Source: Ascidia mentula (taxonomy: Eukaryota > Chordata > Ascidiacea > Phlebobranchia > Ascidiidae). From it: a stretch of 64,000 nucleotides of DNA. Each line of letters opens with the position of its first letter. Position 1 is the first letter of the stretch. Made by a program: the position numbers and the translations under genes. The stretch spans positions 13,025,001 through 13,089,000 of the forward strand of contig OX387205.1 in assembly GCA_947561715.1 (NCBI GenBank), given 5' to 3'. The notes below the pieces were generated by a model. The model made no database searches, was not told the DNA's origin, and worked only from the letters and a program-made list of their open reading frames with translations. Shown one piece after another: positions 4,078 to 60,428 of the stretch.

Positions 4078-4083
4078 TTTATT
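4078..4083 (-). terminator. Polyadenylation signal AATAAA for the candidate cytokine gene
   Basis: A canonical AATAAA on the minus strand lies about 155 bases after the TAA stop at 4237-4239. It implies a short 3' UTR. Confidence 0.5.
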
Positions 4084-4236: not shown

Positions 4237-5546
4237 TTAGCATTGAGAGGGAACAGGAGCGCTGAATAGAAACTTGTTGTACAAGTTGAGGAAATCGCTC
4301 AGGAAGTCGTGAAACTGCATGAGAAAATGGTAGTTGCGAACTTTTTCAAGGGACAAACTGGGAAGGGATGGTTGGATGCAAACTTCACACGGTGGATAAC
4401 TGCTCAGTGGCCGCACGTTTAGACTTCGGCAATACGTTGCTGACATCTGCATGAAAATTTAAATTAAATCAAGGTTAAGTCAGAAATTCTTGTTCCAGTT
4501 TGTTTTTGGTATGAATAAGACTTTGTTACTGTTTTTTATTGCCAAGCGGTTTCTTCATAAAGCTTTGAATATTTTACGCTGCAAAAATGGACTTATGCAG
4601 ATTATATCAAATTGGAACGTCACAAACTGGGCTCTGTACTGGCTTATGATTTAAATCAGAAAGATTTTATTCCACGTTTTGTCCTTGGGTGTGTTTGAAA
4701 ACAAAGATCAGGTCGATTTTTACTTACGTAAGTTTCGAAGTTGTTCATGAACTGGAAGAGCAAATTCGAGACGTCCCGAAGCTGTTCTGTGACGGAATTG
4801 AAGAGACCGCTTTGCTCCGGAATATTCTGTTGGCTGGCGTCAAATTGTGGAGAAGCAAAGACGCTCTGCAGATAATAGTTAAAGTCCTGAAGACCGTTCA
4901 TATTCTTCTGCATGACCGTGTCCCAGTTGTTGTTTTGCTGCAAAAAAGAAACAACGGAATTTGTCTTGTGCAATCGATACTATCAGAGCGATACTATTGT
5001 CGAGAACATATATGTACAATGTAGGTGATTTTGCAGCGCTATTTTTTATACCTTGATGTCGATAACATCTGGAAGGGTCGTGAGACGCAGACTAGTGAGG
5101 TACGTGCGGCATGCTTCCACAGTTGTGCAATCCATTTCGCTTAGAATCTGTGAAAAGCAAATGCACGTCATCACAATGTAATGCAACAAGTCATATAACA
5201 GAAACACCTCGGTCATTTTTTGTTACGTTTTTTCTGAAAAATATGTTTCGCCTACAATTAAGCAGCTCTAATGTAATTCAAATTTGAATGATTTAGGTTA
5301 CTTATCCAAAACAGAGTGCAAAGGCTACAGATGCGCGAGCAAATCAAAATGAATGTAGAAAGTGCTTGAAATACTCACAAATTCGGTAAGAGCCTGATCG
5401 ATTGTGTTTCTCATCGTGGAAAGCTGGACGCGGAGTCTGTTTGAGGCAACAGTGCTTCGGGTGATCTGTTGGTGGAGAGGTATTCCGCAGCAAAGTTTGC
5501 ACATGAGAGCCAGAAGGCACGACGCCAAAGCTACAGTAGAAAGCAT
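4237..5546 (-). CDS. Candidate class I helical cytokine (IL-6/CNTF-like), secreted, 227 aa
   Basis: Spliced CDS complement(join(4237..4446,4728..4937,5052..5147,5379..5546)), 684 nt, 227 residues. Exon 1 starts at the ATG at 5546 and gives a hydrophobic signal peptide of about 21 residues (MLSTVALASCLLALMCKLCC). All three introns are phase 0, with consensus GT-AG ends. The mature part reads as four amphipathic helices: A in exon 1 (about 26-58, containing NRLRVQLSTMRNTID), B at the start of exon 3 (NWDTVMQKNMNGLQDFNYYL), C at its end (LFNSVTEQLRDVSNLLFQFM) and D in exon 4 (LEKVRNYHFLMQFHDFLSDF). Long B-C and C-D linkers carry several cysteines. Helix order, size, signal peptide and all-phase-0 introns are what class I cytokines of the IL-6/LIF/CNTF/G-CSF group show. 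These diverge too far for sequence identity to settle it. It would act outside the cell on a gp130-like receptor. The alternative is an unrelated secreted helical protein. Confidence 0.6.
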
Positions 5547-5646
5547 GCTGATCGTTGAGTAGATTTCTTGACTTTGAATGAAGGGTTATTCTTGATTGTC
5601 GATACGCTGGGATCGCTGAATGTTGTCTGGTAGGCCATGCCACGCA

Positions 5647-5653
5647 TTTTATA
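5647..5653 (-). promoter_or_regulatory. TATA box of the candidate cytokine gene
   Basis: TATAAAA on the minus strand lies about 100 bases upstream of the ATG at 5546. This predicts a start site near 5620 and a 5' UTR of roughly 75 bases. A strong TATA box fits an inducible gene, though that is inference. Confidence 0.55.
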
Positions 5654-5659
5654 CGTTTA

Positions 5660-8600
5660 GCACCCCTAAATTTAAAATCCAAAACCCATTAATTTTACGG
5701 ATGAAATTTCTTTCTTCTACCGCACACGTCATTGTGTGTTGACACAGTTGCATCATTCTTCAGAGCGACCTCACACGGTAGCTGCTCTCTGCGGCAAACG
5801 AGAAAAAAGCGTCGATCCTCTTGAAAGCTACCGTAAGGTTCACATTTAACATGTACCACATTCTGCGTACGTCTAATTAATGAAGCGTTGTTCGTACGTA
5901 GCCTTACGTAAACTATAGCCTTTTTGTGCGTACGAAGGACCCCTTGTATTGAATTTCGCCACCTGGGTATGGGGTCATGTTGAATACAATATGGAAGGTA
6001 AGGCTTGGTTGCTTCTGGGTATTACTAATATACATAAAACTTAATTTAATTTTTTTCTCTTTTGGATACCCGCGGGCACGGAAAATACTACTACACCGGG
6101 CCACAAAGCTTTCGTCAAACTTGATCCACATACAAGTCCGTGTAAATCAGAAATCTGTGCGATTTTCAACGGTTAGGTGTGAACAGGGCAACCACCTGTT
6201 ATTCTTAGTTATATATTTGAATTAAAATACTGCACTAAATTATAGCGTTAATATTCGCACAGATTTCAATGTTATTTTAGCTTATATGTGGATCGAGTTT
6301 GACGAATACATCCCTGGTGTATATTATCTTCCCCGGGCACTAGTAAAAGTTTTTTACATTACCGTTATACCCACTGCGCGAAAGTGAAGTGGGTGAAAAT
6401 ATGACCGTAATCTCTTGTTGTGCAAAGAAACTCTGGTGGAGTTTCGTTCTACGAAATCGCTTTGTTTACACCTCGCCCTATTACAAAGGGCTCCATTTCG
6501 TTGACCTGATTTCCCGCTATTGTTTATCCAGGGCCTAATCCTCACGCTCAAAACTCGCTCGGTCCAACGAACAAACAACACAATCGGCGAGAATAGTAAA
6601 ATTCGCCGAGGAATCCGGGACTAAAAGCCCGTTTTGTTGCCACGAGAAAGTAGTTTTATCTGGTGGTGTGTTGACTTATTCTTAGACTTGAAAACAGGCT
6701 GTGCGCATTTAGGAAGCGTTCTGAAGGGGCAGATTCAAACTAGCTTATATGTCACAAGTAATAATACTAAGCACAACGGATAACAAAACATGTCATATAG
6801 GACGTGATAGCAGCGAAAACCAACATCCAAGATTGACAGGAACAGTTTTTTCGCCGAAATGTTTGCAAATATTGGCTCGTTATATGACCTGAAGGAAATC
6901 TCCCCGAGTAAGGCAGCTTTCCTCGCGAAATATTAAACCAGCTCGAAACCCACGTTTGTCACTTCCACACCCGCGAAAATCCCGGGTTTCGGATTAAATG
7001 AGAATCGCATCTGGCTTCCTGTCCTTGTGCGAATTCCCTCAAAACAAACGAATACGTGAGATACCGACTCCTGCTCCAATCTCATGTTCTAAAAGTAGCG
7101 ACTACGAGTGTTATTGACCTCAGGACAGGGCCGGGTTAAGACATTTAAAAATCCTAAGCCAGTAATCCTTAACCTGTGTCCTTTGAAAGAACCCCCATCT
7201 AATGAAAAATATGTGCAACATATTATGCAACCAAACCTAAAGATTCTGTCCCTTCGCTCCAACTAAGAGCACATCTCGCATCCCTGAATAAGAATCCTTA
7301 GACTGGTGTCCCTTTTATGTGCAATTGAAATTATAAATATAAACCACACAAAATTTTACCCATTAGAATCAAACAAAACTTTATGAAAGAAACAAAATTT
7401 ACTTTTTACCCTATAACAGGAGAGAAATGAATCAAACAAAATGAATCAGCGACCCTTTACCTTGATGCCTTATATATATTTCATTTTGCTCAATGGTTAA
7501 TCTGGTTTACAGCCAACACGCACCACTGTGTTGCAATAAACGTTACGCATGAAGCAATGTACTCAACGACAAATGAGAAGTGTAATGGTGTTCAAATAAC
7601 ACGGACAATTTGCTGTATTTTATGTTTGTTCTACAGTCCGGTTTGTTCCACAGTGTGTTCGAATCAAATATGTAGTTAGTGCTAAAGCTACAGGAATATT
7701 TGGCATACTTTTGGTTTGTGACGTAGCATTATTAATTTACGTTCTTTTAGGAGCACACAGAATGTTGCGTCATTTCAACTTTACGTGTATACACGCCTAA
7801 ATAGTCATGCACTAGAAGCGACAAATCTACCACGCAATGCACAACTTACCCTATGACAGAATGTATAACATACGTCAGCACATTTCGACGGTGTCTGGAT
7901 AAAAATTCCAAGCCAGTGATCCCCATAATCGGTCTCCGGCAAAAATGCCCAAACGCGCGTATGACCGTAAGCAAATAGTGATCGCGTATTTTTACCGGAT
8001 CGCAAGCGAGATGGAAGTGGGATGGGAAGTCTAATTAAAAGTGAATCACGTTCTATTCATACGCCCTGTGTTTGTCGGCTAACGGTTGTTTACGCGGGAA
8101 CGGAACCTCTGACTCGCGCGTGGAATTTGTCCCTAGTCTGGGAAAATTATGATTTTTATGTGGAGCTCCGGACGACCAGTCAAAACACATACAAAGCTTG
8201 TGACCAACCACACATTGCTTGTACATCATTTTTTGTTCTGTAGTTCAAATCACTAGGACTCGGTAAACCAGAGATTCACATACCGTAGCCTTGCAGAACA
8301 ATTGTATGAGCTAGTTGTGTTTTTTACTGCGAAAAAAATCATAATGATTGTTTCTTAAACAAAATACAAATGATCACATTCTGTGTGCCTTCGTCATCGC
8401 AGATTTTAATGGAAAGAAATTTTAAACTAAACAAAAAAATCACACTTTAACACAAAATATGTTGCTTGCGTCGAATGTTATTTTATTATTTTGCCTGAGA
8501 AAGATTCGCAAGCCTTGGATGCATGTGTGACGTGTATCAAATTTACGTTGAGTTTGTGGTGCACGTTGCGGCTGTCTGCTCCAAACCACGCGGCTCGTGT

Positions 8601-9200
8601 TCTGGCCTGGATTATGTCCAACATTTTATTGGAATCGAGAAGGGAACAGCGTCTAATTAGCTGCGTCAACGTGAGAAAAAAATGCTCTCACTATGGAAAA
8701 GTCGGGGAAATGGATATTTTTTTTTACCAATGACGTGGGTGGCGATATTTCGATGAAGATGAAATGACCTTTTGCCGACACATAATCTGTTTTCTCTACG
8801 AATTTGCCTGATCTCATTGTAACCCAATGGTAGCTATTTTCAATTACTTATATGTTGTATTCGGGGACTTTTTACCGGATCTGTACGTGGACACCATTCT
8901 CCTCTTCTATAAACACAAGAGTATTTCGAACACAACATCGCATCACAGCGACACGTATTCTTGTAGGGATGTAAAAAACAGTTCTTATTGGGGCACGATT
9001 TATGAACCTTAAATTTTTTTGGAACCCGACATATTCCAAATAATGATAAACTTGACAGTTTAAATCTAATTCGATGTGTTAAGTCATGTGATTTGTTATA
9101 ACACCAGAACAAGAGTAACTTGTCAAACTTTTGAGATGACTCAAATGAAAGCGTAAAATTAGTTTTTCGCGAAACATAAAACTGGGCAAGATCGGTCAGA
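5660..9200. other. Intergenic stretch with a foldback repeat and weak coding-like patches
   Basis: No gene can be assembled here. A foldback repeat occupies about 6060-6350. Plus-strand frames at about 8491-8671 (ending at a possible GTGAGA donor) and 8827-9012 have coding-like composition, but I could not join them to a start, a stop or each other. The overlapping minus frame 8840-9238 is cysteine-rich at its end. None matches a family I know. Confidence 0.4.
6060..6350. repeat. Foldback (MITE-like) element
   Basis: Two imperfect inverted arms, about 6060-6170 and 6243-6350. For example CGTCAAACTTGATCCACATA near 6112 pairs with the complement of TATGTGGATCGAGTTTGACG near 6285, and AGAAATCTGTGCGAT near 6150 pairs with the complement of ATTCGCACAGATTTC near 6250. 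The loop is short and there is no coding capacity, as in a non-autonomous foldback transposon. Confidence 0.6.
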
Positions 9201-26500: not shown

Positions 26501-29500
26501 AATCATTCCGAAACGGATTTCTGCTCCTGTATTTTCTTCTATCATATTATATCGGTATCATATTATGACTTACCAAGACACTCTTGAATTCTGAGTATTG
26601 GTTTTTGCTGAGGTATAAGTCCATTGCTTCTTTACCCACTAAATTAACCGTTTCGGTGTTTCCCTGGAGTGGGTTCTCGCCGCAGAAATATTCAATTTCG
26701 TAAGCTCCAGGCTTTACGATTTGTTCCTTGGTGTCGGTCGCCTGCAAATATTTCATACACCTTACAACAGGACCCAAATTTCAACATATCTTCCGGCAAG
26801 AAGTGTTTCGTGTAATCGCATAGCAGGCATGATCGCTTTTTTACTGTCTGATATTAATTAAGTTTGTTTTTTATGTGTCTTTTTGGTAAATATTCCGGCC
26901 AATTGCGTGCAAACCATTTTGCCAAATTTAAGCGAATTATTGTAAAAAGTAAATACAATAATGAAGTTGCTGAAAGAATGGCAAAAGGAATGCGTGGTTG
27001 ATTGGCTTTAGGCAATTGTTGAAATAAGTTTGTTGCGTATTTCAACAAAGCCAAGCAGAACTTATACTTGTTTTTTGTTTCAATCGACAAGACTTTCTCC
27101 GCTAGACTGCACTACATTGCAGTTTGAATTCGAGGTATTTTAAGATCACTGATGACGGGGCGGGTGATTGGCAGCATTGACCAAGCGCCCGACCTATATA
27201 CCAAGCAAAAAACCTGATCGGGATTCGTGCCCAGGACATCCTGGGTTCAAATACTGGTGTGGTAAAAAAAAAAAAAAAAAAAAAATCACTGATGACATTC
27301 CAATGTCACCATTTTACAGCTGCATGTTCGCGTAACACATTGAGCATGGTACAGAGACGAAAAGCGTGTTCCGAAAAGCTATTGACATGTTTATACATGG
27401 CATGTGCGTTGTATCTTACGTTGCCTGGTAGAATAACAATTCCACCGCTTCCTTCTTCGGAATAATCCTGGCCCATGAAAGTTGGTAGGAACACTGTGCA
27501 GTCAGCGGCATTGATGACGCGCAAGCTGGACTGTTGGTTGGAGTCAGGGATCTCGGTCAGATTAATCTGGGTTTGGAAATAAGTATACGTATGACCAGGT
27601 GTGTGATGTTTGAAAAGTTTTGGCGGAAAAACACTCACGTCTATCTTCATTTGAATAAGAGCGGCAACAACGAAGGACAATCCAGCCAGGATCATTCCTA
27701 GTGTCATACGGCGCAGGGGACTGCATATAAAAATTAGCAAGGTCACAGGTTGTCGGAATTTGTTGATAACAAAGTTACATGGTTTAAATAAAGGTTTGTG
27801 GTTTTGTCAACTTATGTCAAAGAGCAACGTTGCTAGGCCTTTTTCCTCGTCGTCATTCGCTAGAAATCATCAACCAGTTCACATGCTATGGTAATCAAGT
27901 ACTTAATTATTAGCGTAACCAAATCCCGTTATTCCGCAGCCCCTACACGCCCTACATGCAGATCTCGAACCTTTGGTTAAATTCCCCTTAGTTTTGGATG
28001 AAATCCAATAAGGCCAACTCAGGTAATCAGCAAAATAAACGCCCACCGTGCAATTGTAGGAAAACTGCAAACACGCACCTGAAGTTGATGTTGAAGTGAC
28101 GTAAGCAGGGGTAGAGAGTGACCTCAAATAATGGAATGAGGCAAACGATGAAAAGGGGATTGCACAGTTGCATTTGGTCGGGCAAGATCCTCAGACTTCC
28201 CTGTGAACCAATGAAGTGATTTATGTTTATAACCATGGTGGTTTATTTTATTTATGGCATATTATTTCAATGTTACAAAGAAGTAATGGAATTTTGTTTG
28301 TCTGCTTAATGTAAAAACTGGGCACCACACAAACCGCATGTTAACTTACGAACAATCACATACCACATAACCGTCCATTCTGACGGCTTGGAGAGTCCAA
28401 CGTGATCCTTGTTGATCAAAAAGCGTCCAGAATAGGGGGAGGGGAATGTACAAAATAAGGATTCGAAGAACGTATTTGATGTCACGAATCAGTTTTGCCT
28501 GAAAAAATGAGTAAGAAACCTTTAAGTTTGCTTTATTTCAAAATTAAATAAAATGACATCTCGAAAAATGGTTGCTTCATAAAGAAATAAAAATAAACAT
28601 GGTTCAGTGCGCAGTATTTTATACAAAAATCTTTTACGTTTGTTCCATCGTCGGCGTAATCCATCCAGTGATCTTTACTTCTTTGTTTTCTTGGAGTGTT
28701 CCAGCGATTCTTCCACGCGTGCTGAACAAAATTAATGTGTTACCCATCGAATGTTTAACGACGCACGCAGTGTAGGAACTAAGGGAAATACTGAAAAAAC
28801 GAATTTGTTTCTCGGTTGATTTTCAATCCCAAGTCGGCAAGTGTTTTGACAAATTTACACCACTGGTTTGCAAATACGGAAACAGGCCCGTGTGTTTATG
28901 CTATAGGAGCTACTTTTCCGAGGTGTACCGCCCTCAGTTGATCCCATTACCGAGAAAAGAGTTATGGAAGTGCTAAATACAAAAGTTTTCTTACCCAAAC
29001 GCAGACCGAAGCTCTCAAGAAAATTCTGTCCGATGGCATGGTTCGTTTGTAGTATTTTGTACCAAGTAGGAAGAGCACTAAACACATTAAAACCCTGGTA
29101 AATTTGGTCATAGTTTTATGTGTATCATAAATTGAACTAATCTTTTGGAATAAATTTGAGAAAATATGTTTCGGTGTGTTAAACGGAAGTGTTAAACGGA
29201 ATTATTCGGAATTTTTATCTTAACTTTGCAATGAACATTACCACGAATATCTTTGTTTTCTTTATTCTACACCTATTTAACCTGTTGATTTACTTACATA
29301 TGGCAACAACCATAAGGATAGCGGGAATTCCAAATGCCAGAGCGTAGCAATCATCTCCAAAGCACTGCACTTCATCTGTGTTCAAATATGGGGTTAAGGA
29401 CTCAATTCAACACGTCTTTGTCTACAATTACACCACATAAAATCACACAGTCCACCATTACACCACATACACATACCATAATCTCACTAATTATTTACAA

Positions 29501-41700: not shown

Positions 41701-43274
41701 ATGAGAACATGACAATACGTGGATTGCAACCCGTATATCGTTCGACAGTTTTGGTCAGACTGACTGCTGGTTAAGTGCAAATATCCAATTTGGTGTTAAG
41801 GAGTACGCATTTTTAGAAATTATTTCACAAGCAAATGAAACCAACATATATGTCGGTCTCTATGCGTATAAAATTCATGCTTTGTGCTGTCGGAGAAAGG
41901 CAAACAATAGTTTTGTCACAAGTTCGTGGTGAAGTTTTACATAGTTTCACCTGATCTGCTTCGAATTGGTCGCCACCGAATGCCGACACACATGGTTTTA
42001 TTCCGCCTGTCCCGATGGCAATAACGACTAAACCGACACAGGATAGAACCCTGGAAACCAAACACAACAAACCCCGATAATTTCGCAAAATCCAACCTTG
42101 CATGTTTTTAAATCCTTTGTTTAACAAAAGGCAAAAGCAAGCGGTTTAACTGTTGGTTTCCTGAGATTGTAAAATTACGTTACAGGACGATATGGCCTGA
42201 CACAGGTTTTGCAAAAAGTTTACATTTATGTCTATAATATCAGAGCAACACAATTCCAGCAAAGCTTACGCGTGTGTTGTATGATCTCCTAAAGGTCCAA
42301 CAGCTCCAAGGGTGTTAAGAACCATTCCAACTGCATACACTACAGAAAGCCATAGAATCGTCCTGTAGAAAACGTAAACAGCTTTAAATTGCGATTTCCT
42401 TAAACTTGACGTCACTAAAAAGTTTGCCAAACATTTTAATTTGAGATTTGGAGTTAAACCACTAACATATGTTTGTTAACCCACAAATATCAGAAAACAA
42501 CGAATTGAAATTCCTGATACATAACTAACTTAGTCTATTTGTTAACCCAGATATTGCTGTTTTGCATTATTCTAAACGGAAACATGTATTGTTTTAACAC
42601 ACCGGGATTCTAACCCAGGATATCCTGACCAGGAATCCCGATCGGGTTTTCAAATAACTCTAACATACCTGTATTTACCCCACCAAGTGTCAGCCAAGAT
42701 TGCGCCCAATAACGGAAAGAAATAAGCGACCACAGTAAACGCATGGTAAATAGCAGTTGAGGTGTTGGCGTCCCAATTCATGTAATACGTCAAGTACAAC
42801 ACCAGAATAGCTGAAAGTGAATATCATATTTAGCTATTTAACAGAAAAAAATACAGGTATTTTGTGTCAATACAGGAAGAAGGTCACGCTTACTTCGCAT
42901 GCCATAGTAGGAATAGCGTTCACAGAATTCGTTTCCAAGAATAAAGACGATGTGTTTCGGAAAACCTTTCTGTAAAATTAGTTAAACGCCATTACATGCA
43001 GTCAACATACGTTCACAATTTGTGTATTGATTGTCGGTTGATCCACCAGACTTAACTACTAACCATATGCACGTCGACTGGATATATGTGAAACATGCAC
43101 ACTACCTATGTCATTCTTTACGAGCTAAGAAAACGGTTTGAAAGTCTAACCAAAGACTATCACATGCAGATTAAATGCGAAACATACCGGCTTTCCTTCA
43201 GTAATTCCACCATTCAGTAATGGCCTCCTTTCACTGTTGCTCTCATTTGCCTCGTCGGTTACATGTTCATTCAT
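35728..43274 (-). CDS. SLC15A1/2-like: SLC15 gene C: proton-coupled oligopeptide transporter, 736 aa
   Basis: CDS complement(join(35728..35916,36133..36240,36766..36906,37175..37292,37575..37685,37788..37834,38171..38338,38650..38799,39141..39222,39524..39645,39929..40069,40482..40565,40747..40829,41230..41307,41517..41607,41951..42050,42270..42362,42669..42810,42894..42969,43188..43274)), 2211 nt, frame intact. ExxER intact ([15 protein letters not shown]43/E46/R47). Signatures: [59 protein letters not shown]. The five-exon extracellular domain is about 198 residues. The loop after TM1 differs from A and B (WDANTSTAIYHAF against [13 protein letters not shown]). The tail is short (about 45 residues). 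The start is the first of two nearby in-frame-looking ATGs in ATGAATGAACATG. Some blocks are almost identical to gene B, including intron bases. Confidence 0.92.
41405..41490. repeat. MITE-family fragment in an intron of gene C
   Basis: Contains GCAGACAGTGCACAC and CGACCTTTAAGGTATCATCA, matching the centre and arm of the palindromic element at 15152-15274. Its right part (CTCTGGACTAGC) recurs near 61740. Confidence 0.5.
42592..42651 (-). repeat. 5'-truncated SINE fragment in an intron of gene C
   Basis: The complement reads AAAACCCGATCGGGATTCCT and then a B-box-like stretch and a short A-run, matching the 3' half of the SINE at 27157. The A-box half is missing. Confidence 0.7.
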
Positions 43275-49974: not shown

Positions 49975-52900
49975 TTATAATCTCACAAGCAAGTAAGAAA
50001 TATGTTTTGAGAAAACAACATAAATTTTAGTGTTTTGTGTGGCGATGCCGAAAACAACAATTACCTCAGTGTTTGTACAAAAGAACGCAAGCACTTTGTT
50101 GGAATGAGTATTTCTCTTGTATTTTCCTCGGTCAAAGTCCAGTCTAAGGCGAGTCTCTTGTTCCACTTTGCGTGTTGTAAATTGTTTGGTGAGATCGTCA
50201 AGTTTCCGCTGGAGGGCGAAAAAGTTTGTGTCTAGCCACTGGAGGGAGTCTCCACGCGCTAGTTTGGAGAGATTTTCGGAAAAAAAAACCTGTTCGGGAT
50301 TCGTGGCCAGGATTACCTGGGTCCAAATCTCGACGTAGAAAGACGACATGCGTCTGCTCCTCAATGTGGCTTCGGCTTCACTGACGACACCAATAGAATA
50401 TAAAAGAATCTTCTATTGATTGTTTGGTGCCTATTTTTTAATCATCAAACAAGCTTTAAATCAAAGTTTATTATTATCATTAAAAGCAGCAGGTCACATA
50501 CACAATCGTAAACGGAATGTCCTCAAAAACAGATGCATAAACTATACAAGCTACAGGAATTGCTTTGATCCTCTAAACTACAAGATAATAGGAATATATG
50601 CAAAAATGATGTAAACGGGAAGCCTTAATGATGATCACACACAGGACATCGGCTTGTGTGATACTAGAATTGACATGATCAATAACAGGCAGATTTAGAA
50701 ACTCAAGCTGGTAAGGGTTCGCATAAAAACAACGCACGTTTATAAAAAAACCTTGAAGAATAACAAGAAACCACAAGAACGCGGCAAAATTACAAACAAC
50801 AATCTAATCTAAGACTTTGTACTGCATTTGGATGTTCCATCGGAAAAGACGTTGATGGTTTTCACAGTGGTGATGACTGGGCAAGGCAATTAGTCGAAAA
50901 CATAAGAGCGTGATACTGCGAACCACACATTTCCGGAAATATGACGCAGTTGGTGATGACGATGGCTGCTTCAAGAGTCACGGTTAATAATCACTGATCC
51001 ATTTTCTCAGGTTGTACCTGGAGAAAACAATAATTTTCTGATAAACCCAGCCTACTTCAACAACATCACTAAATTGCAGAAGTGGACAAGGTTAATTTTT
51101 TGTGTTGTCAATGTTTTTTACTATTAAACCTCGATGTTAATGCAAATACAGCGATTTCACTATCCTTTAAAAGCAGCAAAGCTAGTTTAATAAAAGAGAG
51201 TGTTAGATTTATAAATAATAATTATATTACAATTGATGCGGAGGACATCTGTTGTCGCGTTGCCTCCTCCAGTGAAATAAGGATTTCTGCAACCTCCTGC
51301 TGCTGAGCTTTCACATAATCCAGTTCCTGCTTCAATCTATCTTGGTCACACTGAAGTCTTTCAAATTCATTGTTAAGAGATGTTATCTAAATAACAGAAA
51401 AAAAGAAATCATAGTTGACAAAAAGCCTTTCCTTGGTGTAAAATGATTTCCAAGTAATTTGGATTTAATGTTACAACTATGTAGAACTTATTGTAATTCA
51501 CCCTGATTTCCAAGTAATTTGAAGGGAAATGTTGAAATGTTTTTGTTGAAATTAAAATCGAAATTTTTATTTGTGCTTAGTCAGAATAGTATCATGAAAA
51601 AACAGGAAATACTAAACCTATTAGTCATTTTACAAGCAATGGTCATTACCCTGTCTTGGCCCCTTATAGCTTCGTCACAATTTATTACAAGTTAATCACA
51701 AAAAATGTACCTTGTTCACGAGAAACAAATTGCATGTCTTAATTTGTGTAGCTAGTGATGAAAGCAATTTCTGTTGCTGTTGCTGTTGTTGTGATTGTAT
51801 GTGGGTGGCTCCACTTGCACTGGTGATGCTGACAGTAGCTGAGAATTGATAGATGTTAGATTTAATTGAAGACTGTATTAAGCAAAAATAAAACACCAAT
51901 AAAACTTTTCCATACGACGTCGAGTTTTGTTGCCAATATACCATATTGCATTCAAGAACAATAATTCCATTTAAAAAAAAAAATACCCACCAGCTGTAGA
52001 AGCGGCAGTAGTAGCTGATGAAGTTGCTGCCCCAGTGTCCAACTTGAATTCACTTCCAAAAGCAAGGTCTCCTGCCTTGCTTGCACTGCTACTGGCATAT
52101 GTAGTTGCTGTTGGAAGTTTTAAGTCACATGAAATTCCTGTTGCTGCCAAGCATATTGCAATTTAAAATCAGTTATACATGATGAAGTCTTGCTGCATGG
52201 CAGACAAAACATTGAATAAATACAGTACGTACATTTTATGCCAGTTTTAAGGTAATTATAAAAGTTACTGTGCTCGATCTTACCTGTGTCAAATTTAAAT
52301 TCAGATGAAGTGTTGGTGGGTGTTATGATAGCAGGAGCTAAAAATAGAAGATTAAACACCAATTTGTGCCCAAAATTCATGCACACTGCAGTGTGTTACT
52401 ATTAAACACAAAATGCAGAAAAAATACCAATTAGAAAACTATGTGAACAATGTTCACTGTTCACTGAACACCCATAATACAACAAAAAATGTTGGCCTAG
52501 AAACAAGTTTAAGGCCTGTGCCTTGGATCATAGTTTGGTACATGAAAAACCATATTTCCATACTTATTTTGTTTTGATAAATGACCAATTTACCTGTGGT
52601 ATTACCAGTAGCAATAGCAGTAGAACCAAAATAATTTCCTGCAGGCTCGGTCACTTTACGAAATGCTGATGGAGATATGGCTGATTCGCCAAAGGTTAAC
52701 CCTTTGATTGTCTGTTTAACATTTTGCAGCTCCTGTTGATTTTTTAGGAGGGAAAATCCACTTGATTGTTTGGTGGTGGAAGGTAAGGTACCAAATATGC
52801 TGGTTCCAAAACCAAAACCGCCTGTGGAAGCAGCTGGTGTTCCAAAACCAAAAGCAGGTGCTGGTTTTGGAGCTGCCCCAAACCCACTTGCAAGAGCAGT

Positions 52901-55038
52901 AGCAGCAGGTGTAGACGTTCCAAATCCACAACCATTTGGCGCTGTGGTGGCAACTGTTGAAGCAGCCCCAAAAGCTGGAGTTGACTTTGCTGGTGTTCCA
53001 AACCCAAATCCGCTGTTAGTCTGTTGTGGCAGAGCTCCTAAAGTGGAAGAACTGCCCTGAGTGGCTGACGCAGTTGTCTGACCAAATGAGAAACCTGATT
53101 TTTTTGATGATCCAGGTTGGATCGTTGAACTTCCAAAAAACAAACCAGATGCAGCAGGCTGTGTAGTGGTCTGAGCTAGTGAGAAAATAAAATGTGTGTG
53201 TATTTGTGTGTACTATACATGCACTGTACTCCAGAATAATCTATTTTTTAACTGAAGTATATGGTATTTTGTTTTGATAAATGACCAATTTACCTGTGGT
53301 AGTAGCAGTAGAACCAAAATAATTTCCTGCAGGCTCGGTCACTTTATGAAATGCTGATGGAGATTTGGCTAATTCGCCAAAGGTTAACCCTTTCATTGTC
53401 TGCTTAGGATTTTGCAGCACCTGTTCCAGAAGGGAAAATCCCTTTGATTGTGTGGTGGTGGAAGGTAAGGTACCAAATGTGCTGGTTCCAAAAGCAAAAC
53501 CTCCTGAGGCAGTGGAGGTCCCTGCTGTAGCAGCTGGTGTTCCAAAACCAAAGGCAGGTGCTGGTTTTGGAGCTGCCCCAAACCCACTTGCAAGACCAGT
53601 AGCAGCAGGTGTAGATATTCCAAATTCAAGAGCTAGTTTGAAAATAAAATTGTGTGTATATGTGTGTGTATTATAAATGCACAGTACTCCAGAATAGTCT
53701 ATGTTTTAACTGAAGTGTATGGTTTTGTGTCACGGTTTTTCATGTTTACTCATTTTATTTTCTGTTTTATGTAATAACCACAATATGCGAACGTTACGCT
53801 GGTTTAGAACAAAATGAAAAAGTGTGTGGTTCTTGGTTTGTTGAAAAGGTAAATAAGACATGGCGACAATATTATGCTTTTACCGACCTCCAAATTTTGT
53901 AAGCCAGTTTATATGTTTTAAGGGTGTTGAAACACCTGTTTCTGTAGCACCCACACTACCACACTGTAGCAAAGTGGATTAAATGCCTTTTTTGTGACTT
54001 TCCACATGACAAAAATGGACACAGGTCTTTGTTGGAAGAGCAACAGAGCAGTGTTTGCACGTTGATTCAAAACTATTTGTTTTTTGCATTGTTTTCCATG
54101 TTACTGCATATCTGACCACAATTGGTAATGTTACCTGGTTTGGAACCAAATGAAAAGTGTCCAAATGCTGACGACTTTACAACTGGAGTGGTTCCCGGTT
54201 TGTTGACACCTTCATGAAAGAATAATGATGAACAAAAGTTATTGAGACAAGGCTACAATATTGTGATTATTTTAACAAACCTCCAAAGCCTGCTGTTGAT
54301 GGTGCAGATGTTGTGCTGAAAGAAAATGGTGTCCCTGATCCAAATCCTGCACTTGCTGTGGTTTGCGTCGCTCCTAAGAGAAATAATGTGAGCATAAAAT
54401 AAAGGCAGTGCACATAAACTGGCTGAACACCACTGGCCACTGATTTTTTTAACAAGTAGCAATTGCAAATATGTTACAGGCAAGCAAACTTTCAAATGCG
54501 TTATTGAGACAAGATTACAATACTGTGATTGTTGCAACACTACAATAGAAGCCCTTTACAGAGTGAAATATATTTTTCTGCTTTTAAGCATCTTAAGAGC
54601 TGTCTGCAGGATTGACTTTTCAGTTTATACTCAGCAACTATATTTTGATTGTTTTAACAAACCTCCAAAGCCTGTTGTTGATGATGCACATGTTGTGCTA
54701 AAAGAACCAGTACTTTCTGTGGTATGAGTTGCTTCTGTAAGTAATTTAATAAGTATTAAAAGCACACACCGAACACAGACCGGCAACACATAGAAACACT
54801 CATTGCAAATGTTTTTTAAGCAAACAAACCTCCAAATCCCCTGCTTTTCTGATTTGTGGCTTGTTGATTTCCAAAGCAAAAACCTGATTCAGCTGTTGTG
54901 GTTGTTTTAGTGTTTCCAAAACTAAATGGAATTTAGCATGACAAAATGTTATGCTCTAAAAAATGAGTTCTCTGCTGAATTTAAAACTAACCTAAATCCT
55001 TCAGGAGTAGTTTCGTCGCATGAAGAGGAAAAACTCAT
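49975..55038 (-). CDS. Divergent NUP62-like paralogue, FG-rich, damaged coiled coil, about 722 aa
   Basis: CDS complement(join(49975..50289,50639..50707,51231..51386,51711..51838,51991..52137,52284..52337,52594..53175,53294..53632,54135..54209,54281..54373,54663..54734,54830..54921,54992..55038)), 2169 nt. Head-to-tail duplicate of the intact NUP62 at 55589-60428: same exon order and mostly the same phases, same first residues (MSFS). The FG part (about 1-500) is richer in exons: one FG exon and one small exon are doubled. The coiled coil is reduced. The exon 51711-51838 has lost about 20 residues and replaced part with a glutamine run. The next exon stops short at a new donor. The exon 50639-50707 keeps only a remnant (PVIDHVNSS). 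The last exon keeps DSLQWLDTN and ALQRKLDDLTKQ, lacks the old stop and runs on for 51 residues. The last two junctions are uncertain. It could be a new FG protein or an ageing pseudogene still open. Confidence 0.65.
50278..50341 (+). repeat. SINE fragment at the last splice acceptor of the NUP62-like gene
   Basis: AAAAACCTGTTCGGGATTCG and then a B-box-like GGGTCCAAATCTCG match the 3' part of the SINE at 27157. It lies antisense to the gene exactly where the last exon begins; the reference NUP62 has no such insert. Confidence 0.75.
52588..53740 (-). repeat. Tandem duplication of an FG exon with its intron
   Basis: The segment 52588 to about 53270 (exon 52594-53175 plus intron) resembles about 53288-53740 (exon 53294-53632 plus intron). 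Shared words include TGATAAATGACCAATTTACC before both exons and the TG-rich intron with ACTCCAGAATA in both. The second unit is shorter inside the exon. The exons keep phase 1 at both ends, so the duplication preserved the frame. Confidence 0.75.
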
Positions 55039-58500: not shown

Positions 58501-60428
58501 TGATCATTGTTTCTTCTCACATACAAATACTATTAGCAATACAGTACATAATTAACAGCTTGTCAGGTTATCTTGGCACTAGCAGATCCAGTTTAGTTTT
58601 GTTATACTGCAATACATACAAAACAAAAAAACATATATTTGTGCATACATCGGTTCAATTTGCTAAACTTCAAATTTACCTGTGGTAGCAGTAGTAGTTG
58701 TCAAACCAAAGCCAAGTCCTGCAGGCTTGCTCACTTGTGCTGGAGTTGCACCAAATGCCGGAGGATTTTTTGCTGGTGCACCAAATCCCAACCCTCCGGT
58801 AGTTGTGGTTTGCCCAAGACCTCCAAATGCTGAAGCTGAAGTTGTTGCAGTCCCTGTTAATGTTCCAGGAAGGGAAAATCCACTTGATTGTGTGGTGGTG
58901 GCAGTTGAAGTGCCAAATGCCAGACCAGCAGGCTTTGTTGTTTGCAGTGGTGTGCTGGTTCCGAAACCAAAACCTCCTGACGCAGTGGAAGCCGCTGTGG
59001 TAGCAGCTGGTGTTCCAAAACCAAAACCAGGTGCTGGCTTTGGAACTGACCCAAACCCACTGGCAAGACCAGTAGCAGCAGGTGTAGACGTTCCAAATCC
59101 AAAACCAGTTGGCGCTGTAGCGGTGGCTGTTGAGGCAGCACCAAAAGCTGGAGTTGGTTTTGCTGGTGTTCCAAACCCGAATCCACTGTTAGTCTGCTGT
59201 GTAGGTGCTCCAAAAGTGGAAGAACTGCCCTGAGTGGCTGCCGCAGTTGTCTGACCAAATGAGAAACCGGATTGTTGCGTTGGTGCAGGTTGGGCCATTG
59301 AACTTCCGAAAGACAATCCTGATGCAGCAGGCTGTGTAGTGGACTGAGCTAATAAAAAAAGGAAATTAATGTAAATTGTATAATTGCCGATGTTGATTTC
59401 TTGTTTAAGCCAGTTTATGTGTTGTGTCATAATGCCCATTTCTGGGGGAGGGGGTTTATGTCACCCCCGCACTACCACATTGCAGCAAAGTGGATTAAAT
59501 GCCCGTTTTATGCTTTTCTCTTGTTGCTTGTTTTGCGTTGGTGTAGGTCTATGTTGAAAATGCAACAAAGCAGTACATCTTTTTCCATTTTTTCCCAAAA
59601 ACTATTAGTTTTTTTTGCAATGTTTTTTATGTTCCTGTGTAGACAACCCATGGCAGATAAAGTTTGTAATTTGCTCGAAGGACGATGAATAAACGGATGA
59701 CAAAGGTTTTTTTTATGTTGTTCATATGTTAATGCTTATTTTTTTGTACGGATTGCTGATAAAATTGTGAAAATTTGATGAATCCTTTGCACATGCCATT
59801 CTTTCCAATCAGGCATACAACCACAGTTGCAAATGTTACCTGGTTTGGAACTAAATGAAAAACCTCCCGGTGCTGACGAGTTTACAACTGGAGTGGTTCC
59901 AGGTTTGTTGAAACCTTCATGAAAGAACAATAATGATAATAAGTTATTGTGACAAGGCTACAATATTGTGATTATTTTAACAAACCTCCAAAGCCTGCTG
60001 TTGATGGTGCAGATGTAGTGCTGAAAGAAAATGGTGTCCCTGATCCAAATCCAGCACTTGCTGTGGTTTGCGTCGCTCCTAAGAGAAATAATGCGAGCAT
60101 ACAATAAAGGCAGTGTACATAAACTGGCTACTGATTTTTAACAAGTAGCGAATGCAAATATGTTAGAGTCAAGCAAACCTCCAAATGGGAAACCACTGCT
60201 CTGCTGGTTTGTGGCTTGTTGATTTCCAAAGTTAAAACCCGATCCAGCGGTTGTGGTTGTCCCTCCCGTGTTTCCAAAACTAAATGGTATATGAAGTTAA
60301 TATTAATATGACCACTGGTCAGTTTGACAAAGTGATATGTGGTATAAAAAAATCTGTTTACAATTATTTCTATCACACACTAACCTAAAGCCTCCGGCAG
60401 TAGTCTTGTTAGAAAACGAAAAACTCAT
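55589..60428 (-). CDS. NUP62: Nucleoporin NUP62 (p62), FG-repeat nucleoporin, 725 aa
   Basis: CDS complement(join(55589..55747,56035..56146,56437..56627,57039..57217,57397..57588,57733..57864,57954..58037,58107..58163,58286..58375,58680..59348,59840..59914,59986..60078,60179..60279,60385..60428)), 2178 nt, frame intact. NUP62 is part of the central channel of the nuclear pore, in the NUP62-NUP58-NUP54 complex; its FG repeats bind import and export receptors. Residues 1-512 are Ser/Thr/Gly/Ala-rich with many FG and GFGFG repeats (for example SGFGFGTPAKPTPAFG), encoded mostly by exons with phase 1 at both ends, which allows frame-safe repeat gain. Residues about 527-725 are the conserved coiled coil (ATQVNAWNKFLI, RLKQELDYVKAQQQEVEEIL, HMDSLQWLDTNSVALQRKLD). 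It is longer than the vertebrate protein because of the FG part. The start MSFSFSNK is followed by FG repeats and lies near the divergent METTL13 gene. Confidence 0.93.

Follow-up and report, generated by a model that had tools for sequence, protein, structure and literature searches.

A candidate secreted cytokine of the IL-6/G-CSF type, with a putative gp130-type receptor, encoded in an ascidian genome

IL-6 is presented in a 2026 survey as occurring in vertebrates only, with a receptor that reaches back to molluscs (PMC13203501), and gp130 is described in a 2023 study as seeming to have diverged before IL-6 (PMC9857879). Among invertebrates, Drosophila unpaired-3 and domeless are described as a ligand and its gp130-type receptor that work with JAK and STAT, in a paper that also reports an IL6-like protein from the sea star Asterias forbesi, the similarity of which lies below that paper's own BLASTP threshold (PMC8226699). 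With regard to gene structure, IL-2 genes are described with four coding exons, three phase-0 introns and the same helix-per-exon layout as the gene analyzed here (PMC6070626), and IL-4 and IL-13 genes are described with an equal layout (PMC4905449). None of the open-licence papers listed describes a class I cytokine from a tunicate in its title or abstract opening.

The gene considered here lies in a stretch of 64,000 nt of genomic DNA, the whole of which is referred to below as the window, and had been proposed by a first-pass annotation as a class I helical cytokine gene of a tunicate. The tunicate origin was confirmed by COX1, which reads correctly only in the ascidian mitochondrial code: of three mitochondrial codes compared, only the ascidian one (AGR = glycine) puts glycine at the expected positions, which we take to be invariant, the others giving serine or stop. 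The nearest match among the best 120 of 7,999 is Phallusia (87%), with other ascidians at 76% or below and a few at 77-79%, which places the animal among ascidians close to Phallusia. Judged from sequence, the product is probably a class I helical cytokine, and we regard it as moderately likely to be, more specifically, a secreted four-helix cytokine of the IL-6/G-CSF type that acts on a gp130-type receptor.

The candidate gene occupies window positions 4237-5546 on the minus strand and encodes a product of 227 aa from four predicted exons, interrupted by three introns that are all, by sequence reading, in phase 0 and of the GT-AG type. The TATA box (TATAAAA at 5653-5647), the four exons joined only by phase-0 introns and the 227 residues of the first-pass annotation were recovered on the minus strand, with the following features (all on the minus strand):

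5647..5653, minus: TATA box TATAAAA, beginning 107 nt 5' of the start codon
5547..5623, minus: inferred 5' UTR of 77 nt, from TATA+30 to the ATG (start site inferred)
5379..5546, minus: exon 1, 56 aa, signal peptide (by hydropathy) and helix A region
5148..5378, minus: intron 1, phase 0, 231 nt, GTGAGT...CACAG, with a dispersed-repeat fragment
5052..5147, minus: exon 2, 32 aa, A-B loop
5109..5129, minus: C63-x5-C69 motif of exon 2 (A-B loop), with the spacing of the invariant C-x5-C of the IL-6 alignment
4938..5051, minus: intron 2, phase 0, 114 nt
4728..4937, minus: exon 3, 70 aa, helices B and C (AlphaFold2 on exon 3)
4854..4934, minus: predicted helix B, residues 90-116, containing GLQDFNYYL (AlphaFold2 on exon 3)
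4731..4820, minus: predicted helix C, residues 128-157 (AlphaFold2 on exon 3)
4447..4727, minus: intron 3, phase 0, 281 nt
4237..4446, minus: exon 4, 69 aa and stop, C-D loop and helix D (AlphaFold2 on exon 4)
4264..4350, minus: predicted helix D, residues 191-219 (AlphaFold2 on exon 4)
4078..4083, minus: AATAAA poly(A) signal, 153 nt 3' of the stop codon

No upstream ATG is present inside the inferred 77-nt 5' UTR, and two ATTTA pentamers lie between the stop codon and the AATAAA signal. GC content is 0.45-0.50 in the exons versus 0.32-0.35 in the introns, with a third-position GC of 0.57. The geometry of the model was compared against 125,379 other placements of the same exon and intron lengths on both strands of the window. 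All six GT/AG sites were found in none of these placements (0/125,379), all four frames were open in 0.014% of them, and an exon-over-intron GC contrast at least as large as that of the gene was reached by 29. Generic splice matrices place acceptors 1 and 2 among the top 0.5% of the AGs in the window, as strong sites, and rank acceptor 3 and the donors as ordinary (top 4-9%). This is a real gene, with an exon/intron geometry that is not due to chance. A non-functional or wrongly joined gene model is extremely improbable in view of a geometry and GC contrast that are exceptional within the window, the intact frames and the presence of TATA and poly(A) signals.

Two further observations concern the same interval. 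A 124-codon open frame on the plus strand (window 4650-5024), antisense to exon 3, is read as a shadow of that coding exon. Within intron 1, window positions 5179-5292 match five further places in the genome (69-107 bp, 72-80% identity) and correspond to a dispersed repeat. In the 1 kb 5' of the ATG, no NF-kB, AP-1 or ISRE consensus was found; one STAT-type site is located about 0.9 kb 5' of the ATG, together with several loose C/EBP and ETS matches. These being raw site counts, and the consensus sequences above being absent, the promoter scan gives no clear sign of inducibility.

Class I helical cytokines have mature chains of about 130-210 aa. The signal peptide noted by the first-pass annotation is visible as a hydrophobic N-terminal segment, which by hydropathy spans approximately residues 1-21 and leaves a mature chain of about 206 aa, so that on this hydropathy basis the product has both the predicted secretion and the mature length of a class I cytokine. 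Exons 3 and 4 were folded singly with AlphaFold2, a procedure in which helix ends coinciding with exon ends may be artefacts. Exon 3 yielded two helices (mean pLDDT 73.9, pTM 0.42), and exon 4 two short strands in the C-D loop followed by the helix at 191-219 (mean pLDDT 63.8, pTM 0.31), for predicted helix lengths of 27 (B), 30 (C) and 29 (D) residues in these single-exon models. The amphipathic moment at 100 degrees is above shuffles for helices B and C, and not above shuffles for A and D, helix D being helical in AlphaFold2 despite a moment within the shuffled range. Of the four amphipathic helices originally proposed, B and C are thus predicted as such and D as a helix, helix A remaining putative and the moments of A and D lying within the range of shuffles.

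The predicted linkers comprise about 28-30 (A-B), 11 (B-C) and 33 (C-D) residues. The long C-D linker of the first-pass annotation is thus found at the start of exon 4; its long B-C linker was mistaken, that linker being short and the other long one being A-B, in exon 2. An up-up-down-down bundle requires linkers that are long, short and long, and the predicted pattern of lengths fits such a bundle. No cysteines occur between residues 69 and 164. A Foldseek search with the exon 3 hairpin returned 36 matches at E<=10, all weaker than E 0.001 and none of them to a cytokine, the hairpin being an uninformative query.

The resulting layout (signal peptide + A / AB loop / B + C / CD loop + D) has its four parts separated by phase-0 introns, as in class I cytokine genes. 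The probability of obtaining it by chance is 0.023 for three random introns, or 0.0008-0.003 given three phase-0 introns, figures that are approximate, the helix bounds being partly tied to exon ends. Both exon-to-helix layout and intron phases match those of the IL-2 and IL-4/IL-13 genes, which are short-chain class I; unlike in those genes, exon 3 measures 210 bp, versus 105-177 bp among the sizes given in the papers on them (PMC6070626, PMC4905449), which is consistent with longer helices. A class I cytokine for another receptor (e.g. of the CLF-3/CRLF3 type), functionally nearer EPO, GH or IL-2, would account for the four-exon layout, which is the very one of the IL-2 and IL-4/13 genes, and Ciona is reported to have a second class I receptor, CLF-3 (PMC1963337). 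Helices of 27-30 residues suggest the long-chain type instead, and the IL-6 helix profile described below picks out the candidate and G-CSF rather than EPO, GH or IL-2, so we consider this alternative improbable.

Class II helical cytokines (interferon/IL-10 type) are built on a six-helix plan. The phase-0 introns would suit this class as well, fish type I interferon genes being described with four of them (PMC4929537). The three introns and four exons found here depart from the five-exon plan, the two long helices of exon 3 and the lone long helix D after a 33-residue loop are a poor fit, and the ordered-helix signal is of IL-6 type; a class II cytokine is accordingly very improbable, and the class I reading is retained in what follows.

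Homology searches, which score only the best candidates from a loose first look, returned nothing above chance. The protein search gave 133 word-sharing candidates from 5.8 billion proteins, tunicate and vertebrate proteins included, and none at E<=10. The PDB sequences gave 27 matches within E 10, all of them weak and the best at 0.3 (MukE, a lipase, Ran), which is chance level, and MukE was rejected as a family for the same reason (Pfam E 0.2, NCBIfam E 0.048, both chance level). As to unpaired proteins, the comparison is that of these general Pfam and protein searches. In the genome (195.8 Mb, 79 contigs), the full-length protein and its exons 3 and 4, used as queries, recovered the gene itself and no second copy; an exon 4 match at C70:13241375 (E 0.09) contains in-frame stops and looks like chance. 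Compared directly with IL-6, the candidate reached a BLASTP E of 1.8. The profile-profile search advised by the first-pass annotation was carried out with hhalign against 20 IL-6 sequences, selected for diversity out of 57 matches ahead of the profile tests, and gave P 0.065 over 97 collinear columns; in three shuffle nulls, a score this high was attained by 23, 30 and 40 of 400, and the match is not significant. By Pfam scan and hhalign alike, the candidate does not match the profile of the IL-6 family proper (PF00489).

Absence of any homologue or family match above chance, and of a significant hhalign result, is what would be expected if the gene encoded a lineage-specific secreted helical protein (structural, reproductive or defensive) that resembles cytokines by chance. 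Evidence bearing on this explanation comes from an ordered test, devised after the helix B match had been noticed, in which the four IL-6 helices are scored in order, ungapped and with free spacing. The decoys (n=1484) are four recuts of one ascidian ORF pool (>=50 codons, all frames, mostly non-coding); hence they are not independent of one another, and their helix content falls short of that of real proteins. When helices were scored singly, helix B was reached by 1/371 decoys and 2/1000 shuffles, while A, C and D were reached by 213, 105 and 500 of 1000 shuffles; their unordered sum was reached by 0/371 decoys and 6/1000 shuffles. In the ordered test, the candidate score of 25.9 was reached by 0/1484 decoys, 0/1000 full shuffles, 1/1000 shuffles preserving the hydrophobic pattern, and 0/1000 within-segment shuffles both with and without that pattern kept.

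The ordered score was stable to changes in its settings, random variation of helix windows and pseudocounts yielding 0/300 in each of eight trials, a profile from 14 placental-mammal rows 0/500, and one from 6 monotreme, bird and turtle rows 1/500. ABCD is the best of the 24 helix orders; reversal of the profile columns lowers the score to 6.3, and permutation within hydrophobic and polar classes reaches the candidate score in 0/1000 cases. Among the controls, G-CSF scores 39.0, EPO -2.6, GH -1.9 and IL-2 2.8, and the control's own shuffles reach its score in 2-7% of cases for EPO and IL-2, 14-32% for GH and 0/1000 in either null for G-CSF. The test therefore separates G-CSF from EPO, GH and IL-2, and the candidate groups with G-CSF. 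An IL-6/G-CSF-type helix signature in the order A-B-C-D is thus present by this test. Broken down by part, helix B alone was reached by 1/1000 shuffles, A+C+D by 35/1000 and C+D by 292/1000: the ordered signal comes mostly from helix B, then from C, and D contributes nothing.

Read in reverse, the candidate still scores 13.8, a value reached by 2/1484 decoys and by 10/1000 pattern shuffles, and part of the contrast with decoys consequently reflects generic helix bias. This fairly high score and the uninformative helix D add to what speaks for chance resemblance. Against it, segment shuffles that preserve hydrophobicity never reach the IL-6 score (0/1000), the correct helix order is the best of 24, and the gene has the exon/phase layout of a cytokine; on balance a chance resemblance is unlikely, although it is the alternative to which we give most weight, and a cytokine of the IL-6/G-CSF type remains the preferred reading.

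The candidate resembles IL-6 and G-CSF in its predicted secretion, similar length and ordered A-B-C-D helix similarity. As regards IL-6 in particular, helix B (GLQDFNYYL) agrees with it at G, L, F, Y and L, five positions that are invariant or nearly so in the IL-6 alignment, and a C-x5-C (C63, C69) is found near the end of helix A, in the A-B exon. Conserved cysteines in the A-B region of IL-6 pair as disulfides. Unlike in IL-6, alignments place the first C-x5-C cysteine of IL-6 on C69, not C63, the second pair (C-x9-C, C103 and C113, invariant in the IL-6 alignment) is missing, so that the two conserved cysteine pairs of the IL-6 family are not both found, and the helix D similarity is not above chance. 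IL-2 differs from the candidate in not being picked out by the IL-6 helix profile. Since both the profile match and the second cysteine pair fail, the candidate was not placed in PF00489 and is filed outside the IL-6 family proper, as a protein that would work like an IL-6/G-CSF cytokine. It is provisionally assigned to the superfamily of class I helical cytokines: for the class originally proposed, layout, ordered-helix signal and the receptor, JAK and STAT genes described next are favourable, while hhalign was not significant and Pfam offered only the chance match to MukE.

The genome was searched for a receptor using human gp130 D2-D3 (identical to 1bqu) as query, and 44 matches were listed. 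Fn3-like matches clustered on C1 and C73 (best E 3.4e-6) scored better than two gp130-matching exons on C1, with E values of 0.005 and 0.009; the locus of the latter was chosen because its two exons are in order and 1.6 kb apart, a WSDWS exon being then found alongside, and a local tblastn at this locus gave E 4e-7. A 220-kb stretch at G000:C1, about 401,000-624,000, contains many short exons with fn3-like matches to gp130 D3. Two places on C71 that were retrieved alongside show no receptor-like WSXWS exon by eye. The one match to PF09240 fell below the cut-off and belongs to a gene, which we take to be PTK7-like, that has Ig as well as kinase exons, and this was rejected as a receptor; PF06875 found nothing in the genome, and the control genomes were also blank, which makes that result uninformative. 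The loci concerned are:

G000:C1, about 8,001,500-8,009,600: gp130-type receptor locus (L029/L032)
L035:632-4096 and 5685-9005 (G000:C71): JAK-like frames of 1155 and 1107 codons, uninterrupted

The exons of the receptor locus encode Ig-like, cytokine-receptor module, fibronectin-like and transmembrane segments, domains beyond the gp130 D2-D3 match having been assigned by eye and on exons only. The cytokine module carries CETNGHLTLMTCCWQGGRETHLNTSY (human MRCEWDGGRETHLETNF) and NGYWSDWSEV, and a proline-rich box1-like LWPPIPEP is located just inside the membrane. The putative topology can be read as Ig-CHD-FN3-TM-box1, and equal topology is reported for a Ciona gp130-like class I receptor described in 2007 (PMC1963337). 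Open stretches containing tyrosines are also present 3' of the receptor exons, in L032. The two neighbouring JAK-like genes each have a FERM and two kinase stretches, and one has a recognised SH2 domain. They are apparently intronless and lie side by side, an arrangement of JAK genes believed to be unusual. At least one STAT gene is present, and receptor, JAK and STAT are accordingly found in one genome.

With these components at hand, we lean towards the candidate being a gp130 ligand. In the mechanism proposed, the protein would be cleaved after about residue 21 and exported, the mature chain would fold as an up-up-down-down bundle with cysteines tying the long A-B and C-D crossover loops, and the cytokine would bind the gp130-type receptor of this ascidian genome, with receptor clustering then activating a box1-bound JAK and subsequently a STAT. 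It has been suggested that tunicate gp130, lacking partner chains, functions as a homodimer (PMC9857879), in which case a single ligand would fit. The proposal is alike, by description, to Drosophila unpaired and Domeless, namely an invertebrate ligand for a gp130-type receptor with JAK and STAT.

We regard as evenly poised the further proposition that this is an ancestral-type tunicate gp130 ligand, i.e. an IL-6/G-CSF-type cytokine that predates vertebrates and was hidden by sequence divergence. If true, tunicates and vertebrates would have inherited the gp130-JAK-STAT axis from their common ancestor with ligand and receptor both in place, the IL-6/G-CSF branch would be dated before vertebrates, and the gap left by an ascidian gp130-type receptor without a known ligand would be filled. 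The candidate would likely be, as far as its sequence indicates, the first IL-6-type cytokine in ascidians, and would provide a simple chordate ligand-receptor system for work on blood cells, regeneration and inflammation. The combination of exon/phase layout and ordered-helix test can be used to seek other hidden invertebrate cytokines.

Other features were recorded elsewhere in the window, in which Rfam found nothing. Positions 804-1053 hold two tandem 122-bp units, whose consensus includes GGTTCAAATCCCGGTGTAG and recalls, by eye, a tRNA-derived repeat. Two FG-repeat nucleoporin-like frames, below the Pfam cut-off, are located about 5.5 kb apart on the minus strand (52457-53212 and 58666-59460), their pairing suggesting a local duplication. 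Finally, two exon matches to the POT peptide transporter family PTR2 lie on the minus strand at 27309-27806 and 41828-42145.
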